Source: Streptomyces apricus (GTDB lineage Bacteria; Actinomycetota; Actinomycetes; Streptomycetales; Streptomycetaceae). From it: a stretch of 38,192 nucleotides of DNA. The stretch's first letter is position 1. Each line of letters opens with the position of its first letter. Shown here in pieces: positions 8,333-10,268 of this stretch. Below the pieces are notes generated by a model, which saw only the letters and a program-made list of their open reading frames with translations, searched no databases and had not been told where the DNA came from. Made by a program: the position numbers and the translations under genes. Location of the stretch: the NCBI RefSeq assembly GCF_008369065.1, contig NZ_VDFC01000043.1, positions 160,856-199,047 of the forward strand, in the 5' to 3' direction.

Positions 8333-10268
<1,936 letters not shown>

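Follow-up and report, generated by a model that had tools for sequence, protein, structure and literature searches.

Two described systems come closest to the locus considered here, the TPP riboswitch (RF00059) and the cluster of parS sites that Streptomyces chromosomes carry near oriC. In the first of these, an optional helix may stand inside the P3 element, where it goes by the name of P3a. As for the second, S. coelicolor has been credited with 16 parS sites within about 200 kb (PMC4852455), and for S. venezuelae either 16 (PMC4852455) or 17 sites (PMC12511625) are given, with neither sequences nor genes in those portions of the two papers that were available. The portions of PMC4852455 available on the parS sites of these two species mention neither riboswitches nor thiC. 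As far as could be judged from titles and the opening lines of abstracts, no paper describes a parS within a riboswitch, at thiC, or at the tips of terminators, a silence that is only weak evidence of novelty, the coverage of subscription papers being poor. PMC8357415 concerns an unrelated theophylline switch. Nor were any ParB-binding or ChIP data found in the published literature for the thiC site, either in the species studied here or in any named species with this leader.

The locus lies in a stretch of 38,192 nucleotides, referred to as the window, from an 8.85 Mb Streptomyces genome (the own genome in what follows). Its thiC leader has, inside the P3 insert of a TPP riboswitch, a parS-type site at the tip of a hairpin. 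The parts of this leader, numbered by the window, are as follows:

8289-8316, + strand: putative thiC promoter, TTCACC-16 nt-TAGCGT, a conserved block in relatives that is read as -35 and -10 elements with no start-site data
8326-8482, + strand: TPP (THI) riboswitch aptamer of thiC, matching RF00059 at 41.8 bits, E 3e-7
8374-8378, + strand: 5' strand of the lower P3a stem, TCCGT, complementary to 8410-8414
8383-8406, + strand: upper P3a hairpin of at most 10 bp, with one U-G and the loop ACGU, its flank pairs covarying in relatives
8388-8401, no strand assigned: parS-type site GTTTCACGTGGAAC, one of the parS set of the genome, its letters kept beyond pairing in relatives
8410-8414, + strand: 3' strand of the lower P3a stem, ACGGA, from the sequence and the folds
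8461-8466, + strand: AGGGAG, 3' aptamer segment and putative thiC Shine-Dalgarno, 8 nt before the ATG, the role in translation being inferred
8475-10268, + strand: thiC, phosphomethylpyrimidine synthase, matching NF006763 at 973 bits (cut-off 650) and TIGR00190 at 695 bits

The thiamine gene thiC lies directly downstream of the riboswitch, whose match, obtained in a 221-base search, covers the whole of the model (1-105 of 105) with 53 nt skipped at P3, and is recovered at E 2.8e-6 when the entire own genome is searched. All of the core segments of the aptamer (CUGAGA, ACCUG, UAAU.CCgGCG and AGGGA) are present in the RF00059 alignment, as they are in the leaders of relatives. The score of 41.8 bits is nevertheless below the Rfam gathering score of 54.3, and a scan at the gathering score omits the thiC leader altogether. 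The long P3 insert with its parS-type site is probably the cause, and it carries a warning for annotation, i.e., that the standard TPP-riboswitch threshold can miss thiC leaders of this kind, as it does in the window. The own genome has two further TPP-riboswitch matches, at C251:679685-679797 (62.5 bits) and C283:262160-262265 (50.3 bits), and there is no parS on either contig.

The skipped part of P3 is a two-storey hairpin, in which a lower stem carries an upper stem topped by GTTTCACGTGGAAC. Four of the five pairs of the lower stem are present in the predicted folds (8374-8377 with 8411-8414), and the upper stem (8383-8392 with 8397-8406) has ten possible pairs around the loop at 8393-8396. 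The centroid of the RNA fold holds all ten of them, and the minimum-energy structure holds nine (8384-8392 with 8397-8405), leaving 8406 bulged. GTTTCACGTGGAAC agrees with the 14-bp consensus GTTTCACGTGAAAC at 13 of 14 positions and departs from it at pair 4/11, the same pair that is off at the cluster sites 93656 and 162494, and one that is left open in the bacterial parS consensus. A sequence-only reading of this DNA had already proposed that a parS-like sequence formed the tip of the extra hairpin of the thiC riboswitch, and this is confirmed by GTTTCACGTGGAAC at 8388-8401 in the P3 insert. The span it gave, 8382-8405, was right to within a base or two; the full-length RF00059 match bears out its placing of the hairpin between the two halves of the aptamer; and the lone deviation from symmetry, which it held to be still paired in RNA, is indeed a possible U-G pair of the stem (8391-8398).

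That this sequence belongs among the parS sites of its chromosome was apparent from their distribution. The own genome has 19 GTTYCACGTGRAAC sites, all 19 of which are on contig C248 within 200 kb (29,413-229,044), and the same contig has parA and parB family matches at 121.8-124.2 kb, some 46 kb away from thiC, the clustering being shown relative to parAB and not directly to oriC. The window alone has six matches to GTTTCACGTGAAAC at three mismatches or fewer against 0.52 expected, a number that none of 100 shuffles reached, five of them being GTTYCACGTGRAAC sites and one having two mismatches to GTTTCACGTGAAAC. A coincidental origin of GTTTCACGTGGAAC was rejected on the basis of the shuffles, the 19-site cluster, its recurrence in 128 genomes and the absence of core changes, the last two of which are described below.

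Other observations were made along the contig. There is a parS deviating at position 4 at window 1639-1652, a parS-like sequence with two mismatches at 604-617, and a trio of perfect parS in 88 bp at 18412-18499, the middle one with a 6-bp stem extension; the trio comes directly after the gene for cytochrome bd oxidase subunit II, where an ORF matching CydD and CydC begins. The Streptomyces sRNA Scr3920 (RF02828, 148.8 bits) is at 2652-2776 on the + strand, and a further parS lies inside parB, at C248:123313-123326.

Palindromes centred on CACGTG are used by several regulators, and the site in the thiC leader is located between the putative promoter and the start codon, so that a DNA-binding protein other than ParB, e.g., a regulator of thiC, could be the one that recognizes it. 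We regard this as very improbable, since the same type of site occurs 18 more times around parAB in the own genome and the ten positions of the 14-mer that are fixed extend beyond CACGTG.

The leader proved to be widespread in the genus and its parS much less so. DNA matching the leader at E 0.001 or better was present in 392 of 392 Streptomyces genomes (the weakest match, in G073, being a 34-base stretch), and 128 of the 392 had an intact parS in the thiC leader, as identified by a pattern with parS upstream of the P3 3' strand. The raw count by this pattern was 129, from which G174 was removed after inspection by eye, as its match was a chance one elsewhere and its own leader is without parS. 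By the pattern, the leader parS is missing in 264 of the 392 genomes. A set of 269 Streptomyces leaders was then divided into those with an intact parS (129), those within one change of it (43, the near class), and those with no trace of parS (97), meaning that P3a is parS-derived in 172 of the 269. This set is enriched for window-like leaders, many having come from ranked lists, and four are from genomes outside the 392; left out before the count were the two other TPP riboswitches and the parS stretches of the own genome, the leaderless loci L106, L112, L118 and L279, seven duplicates and the chance match L269. With 97 of 269 leaders and 264 of 392 genomes lacking it, the site must be dispensable in the thiC leader. 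Leaders without parS have short stems such as CCGTACG/CGTACGG, or other sequence, at the same place, and a script detected a lower P3a helix, 5 bp or longer, in 128 of the 129 intact, 38 of the 43 near and 84 of the 97 non-parS leaders. Upstream of the aptamer the block CTGTTCA...GCTAGCGTGG is conserved in the leaders whose upstream sequence was long enough, 34 of the intact and 19 of the near class, and is weaker in 96 leaders without parS.

On a tree of thiC (FastTree, one gene, the 207 of the 269 leaders with enough coding sequence), the parS-derived tip changes between presence and absence 4 times and parS between intact and broken 15 times. Most simply read, one part of the genus received a parS in the loop of a P3a stem that was already there, a history that is inferred and whose direction is without an outgroup test. 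A wider search with the pattern CTGAGA-parS-ACCTG, which catches mainly single-copy leaders, in one genome each of 84,980 species matched 109 stretches. A script identified 73 of these as thiC leaders, 72 under Streptomyces (the named ones including S. scabiei 87.22, S. noursei, S. lydicus and S. seoulensis) and one under 'Actinobacteria bacterium OK074'. The other 36 were rejected as thiC leaders, three being Streptomyces parS elsewhere; 35 of them were viewed by eye and had no TPP core, and the context of L361 was not viewed. In 16 genomes from other genera of the order, only one of them from the same family and together a small outgroup, there was no parS in the thiC leader.

The question of whether the letters of the site are kept, or only its capacity to pair, could be approached through the leaders with a single copy. 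In 63 of these, core pairs 1, 2, 3, 5 and 6 are invariant, pair 4/11 is T-A in 35 and T-G in 28, and the centre varies in 16 (15 CACATG and 1 CATGTG). Flank pairs 1-3, on the other hand, each occur as three or four paired types that differ on both sides, and they pair in 63, 62 and 61 of the 63 leaders; flank pairs 4 and 5 are paired in only 55 and 25. Among the 16 distinct 22-mers, 45 of the 48 flank cells at pairs 1-3 pair, whereas 2000 shuffles gave 34.2 on average and never more than 40. Since the flanks covary and the core is constant, pairing has been kept beside the core and letters have been kept within it. The tree is in keeping with this: over 113 parS-derived leaders positions 4, 8, 9 and 11 account for 31 changes and the six flanking ones for 49, the other ten of the 14 core positions having none, although the two outer positions of the 5' flank of copy 1 changed only 2 and 3 times over all 113. 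The sequence-only reading had made its idea of dual use depend on relatives keeping the letters of parS and not just the pairing, and on this point it is supported, with limits. Within the insert-bearing lineage the letters are kept, with ten core positions unchanged beside 49 flank changes; in other Streptomyces lineages they are not, 97 of the 269 leaders being without parS, which was the outcome that had been named as refuting.

It could be argued that parS is present only as a DNA element, a passenger whose hairpin has no effect on the riboswitch and whose self-complementarity simply follows from its being a palindrome. The conserved core of the aptamer is a long way from the tip, some leaders do without the tip, and parS sites elsewhere also have palindromic flanks. 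This explanation is unlikely, if not to be dismissed lightly, given that the pairing reaches past the 14-bp palindrome and covaries, that all but one of the 129 intact leaders have the lower P3a stem, and that the copies in tandem leaders form one long predicted stem. These counter-arguments have a limit, as what they show is that pairing is kept and not that TPP control depends on the pairing.

Leaders of the tandem type, of which there are 109 by length, have two parS-like copies each, although in 5 of the 109 no copy 2 was found and a few copy-2 assignments are doubtful. The predicted P3 fold of these leaders joins copy 1 to copy 2; where a copy 2 was found, the class means for this pairing are 0.92 to 0.96, and a few exceptions are not so paired (e.g., L084, L047 and L050). 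Copy 1 forms a hairpin of its own, at a probability above 0.5, in only 1 of 108 tandem leaders versus 63 of 64 single-copy leaders. Because the two copies are mostly the two arms of one predicted stem, a pure pairing constraint would act on both, and the tandem leaders can serve as an internal control, in which parS is kept on one arm only and which makes it easier to tell the two constraints apart. The difference between the arms is large: among the 109 leaders copy 1 occurs in six states and copy 2 in 53, and the intact sequence is found in 81 of them for copy 1 and in 2 for copy 2. At the ten core positions of the 69 tandem leaders in the tree, no change is inferred in copy 1, against 40 in copy 2 (0 versus 23 in 40 intact leaders, and 0 versus 12 in 26 of the near class); errors in the tree inflate such counts on both arms alike. 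When the 56 distinct combinations of copies are compared, copy 1 is nearer to parS in 53 and copy 2 in 1, with 2 ties, the sole reversal being L078, in which copy 1 is broken, copy 2 is intact and the GCGAT flank is still kept. At the 3' edge of copy 1 the number of changes in tandem leaders goes from 0 at position 14 to 11 at position 15, where parS ends. At the 5' edge, GCGAT, the five bases preceding copy 1 and outside the 14-mer, had only 0, 1, 1, 1 and 2 changes. Two intact parS, one on each P3a arm, were seen in L160 (G340) and L370 (S. seoulensis), which are probably one genome, and G507 has the same arrangement in its thiC leader.

With GCGAT nearly as fixed as the core, it is possible that there is a constraint on the 5' arm that is not due to parS, and the conservation of one arm may in part have a different origin, e.g., an RNA constraint on that arm or ParB contacts that extend beyond 14 bp. 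The same fixity can be invoked for an explanation in terms of RNA only, whereby what is conserved is a hairpin, or a 5' arm fixed for folding order or a tertiary contact, and the likeness to parS is due to chance or to an ancestry no longer in use. Such an explanation can also draw on other Streptomyces that keep P3a stems without parS, many of the CCGTACG type, and on the near-parS single-copy variants, which retain stem pairs. We consider it quite improbable all the same. The copies are arms of one predicted stem, yet copy 1 alone keeps the parS letters, with a sharp edge at the parS end, and L078 keeps GCGAT while its copy 1 is broken and its copy 2 intact. In addition, the paired position that is free to vary is 4/11, leaders without parS have other tips, and the site is one of 19 in 200 kb. 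Selection on the core at the level of DNA, by way of ParB, is the best reading of the one-armed conservation from the sequences compared, albeit one that is not proven. The dual use suggested at the outset is supported by the constancy of the core and the one-armed conservation of tandem leaders, and weakened by a 5' flank of copy 1 that is nearly as fixed.

The leaders of the near class raised a question of their own, as to whether they have simply lost parS. The centres of the 43 are CACATG in 37, CACGGG in 5 and CATGTG in 1, and GTTTCACATGAAAC and GTTTCACGGGAAAC are sequences of the variant class. Single-copy leaders of this class retain the stem pairs, and copy 1 is fixed at its other ten positions in the 26 tandem near-class leaders placed on the tree. 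Plain loss of parS was not accepted outright for GTTTCACATGAAAC, since further copies of it recur near thiC. A further copy was present in 18 of the 37 genomes with a CACATG leader, mostly 44 to 50 kb from thiC, in 4 of the 19 genomes of the intact class, there no more than 52 kb from thiC, and in 0 of 7 genomes without parS; these counts are a hand tally over 70 genomes and 66 places, two of the places being more than 600 kb away and two on other contigs. By distance, it is inferred that the place at 44 to 50 kb corresponds roughly to the location of parB in the own genome. In many genomes with the CACATG leader, a GTTTCACATGAAAC is about as far from thiC as the parS inside parB of the own genome, as if both sites had changed together. 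It is our inference, made without binding data, that GTTTCACATGAAAC may be a weaker ParB site, and also that exchange between copies could have changed positions 8 and 11 together. The part of PMC7383237, on ParB specificity, that was available does not decide whether ParB binds GTTTCACATGAAAC.

The near class is also where the possibility of a decaying relic has to be considered, i.e., a parS that was inserted once, has been drifting since, and was kept for a while by gene conversion between copies. That 43 of 269 leaders are near-parS and that copy 2 varies widely is what would be expected of such a relic, and exchange or deletion between copies would account for the joint change at positions 8 and 11. 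Little credence can be given to it, however, as ten of the 14 positions of copy 1 are unchanged even in the near class, in the same 26 leaders in which copy 2 has 12 changes.

The explanation that we favor, and hold with good confidence, is that the tip of P3a is a genuine parS of the parAB cluster that is kept by selection at the DNA level and whose flanks are kept self-complementary, which lets the RNA go on closing a P3a stem, the occupancy by ParB being inferred. One stretch of sequence probably has two unrelated jobs in many Streptomyces. The features on which this draws were computed here, namely the position in the aptamer, membership of the parS cluster, covariation of the flanks versus constancy of the core, and conservation of one arm in tandem leaders. 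A parS can occupy the loop of an RNA hairpin without harming the fold because it is a palindrome; as DNA it would nucleate ParB, and as RNA it would merely lengthen P3a. Transcription would probably start just before the aptamer, as inferred from TTCACC-16-TAGCGT, and continue through parS, and the RNA would fold with the parS tip as the top of P3a. Binding of TPP would then cover AGGGAG, the 3' aptamer segment and likely Shine-Dalgarno, although both the binding and the control of thiC are inferred. On the DNA, ParB would be expected to load at the site in the leader and then spread, as is described for S. venezuelae parS in the available part of PMC12511625. That the two roles exist side by side without mutual effect is likewise an inference, and this analysis produced no evidence that either role affects the other.

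The thiC leader may be one example of a more general habit. Of the remaining 18 parS sites in the own genome, four are continued on both sides by an inverted repeat of at least five further Watson-Crick pairs. Two of these follow a poly-A polymerase-type gene, one behind the other within some 110 bases; a third is a perfect palindrome of 54 bp that separates two convergent ORFs, both with family matches; and the fourth is at window 18449. The positions listed for inverted-repeat parS in the own genome are C248:136801, 136870 and 229031 (L413, L414). In seven other Streptomyces genomes, 17 of 56 parS sites (about 30%) extend by at least five pairs, against 0.81 expected from swapped flanks; the 17 are not all independent events, as some are orthologous between genomes, and their gene context was not covered. 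Many of the extended sites look like bidirectional terminators with parS at the tip, and a rule suggests itself that palindromic DNA sites in transcribed regions can live at hairpin tips. A bolder proposal is that the centromere sites of Streptomyces are systematically placed at RNA hairpin tips, those of terminators and the thiC riboswitch, and that ParB on the leader slows or blocks RNA polymerase in P3a. This is improbable on present evidence, but were ParB to slow or block the polymerase there, riboswitch folding and thiamine synthesis would respond to the state of the segregation complex, and the thiC leader provides a direct way to ask if partition complexes affect the transcription of host genes.

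Set beside the known systems, the locus has similarities to each of them. The riboswitch upstream of thiC shares with RF00059 the conserved core segments and an extra stem within P3, and it matches the model over its full length, albeit below the gathering score; it differs in that its P3 holds a 53-nt insert tipped by a 14-bp parS-type site. Like the parS of S. coelicolor and S. venezuelae, the site is a 14-bp palindrome in a cluster near parAB, but the thiC copy is inside a structured RNA leader, where the sequences on either side of it pair into an RNA stem. A single short sequence seems to be under two constraints at once, that of a DNA site bound by a protein and that of a part in a structured RNA, and a parallel is found in the same genome, in the parS inside parB (C248:123313). 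There too a segregation site doubles as a functional sequence, a coding one; in the thiC leader, by contrast, the second use is an RNA structure, which suits a palindrome and imposes no codon constraint.
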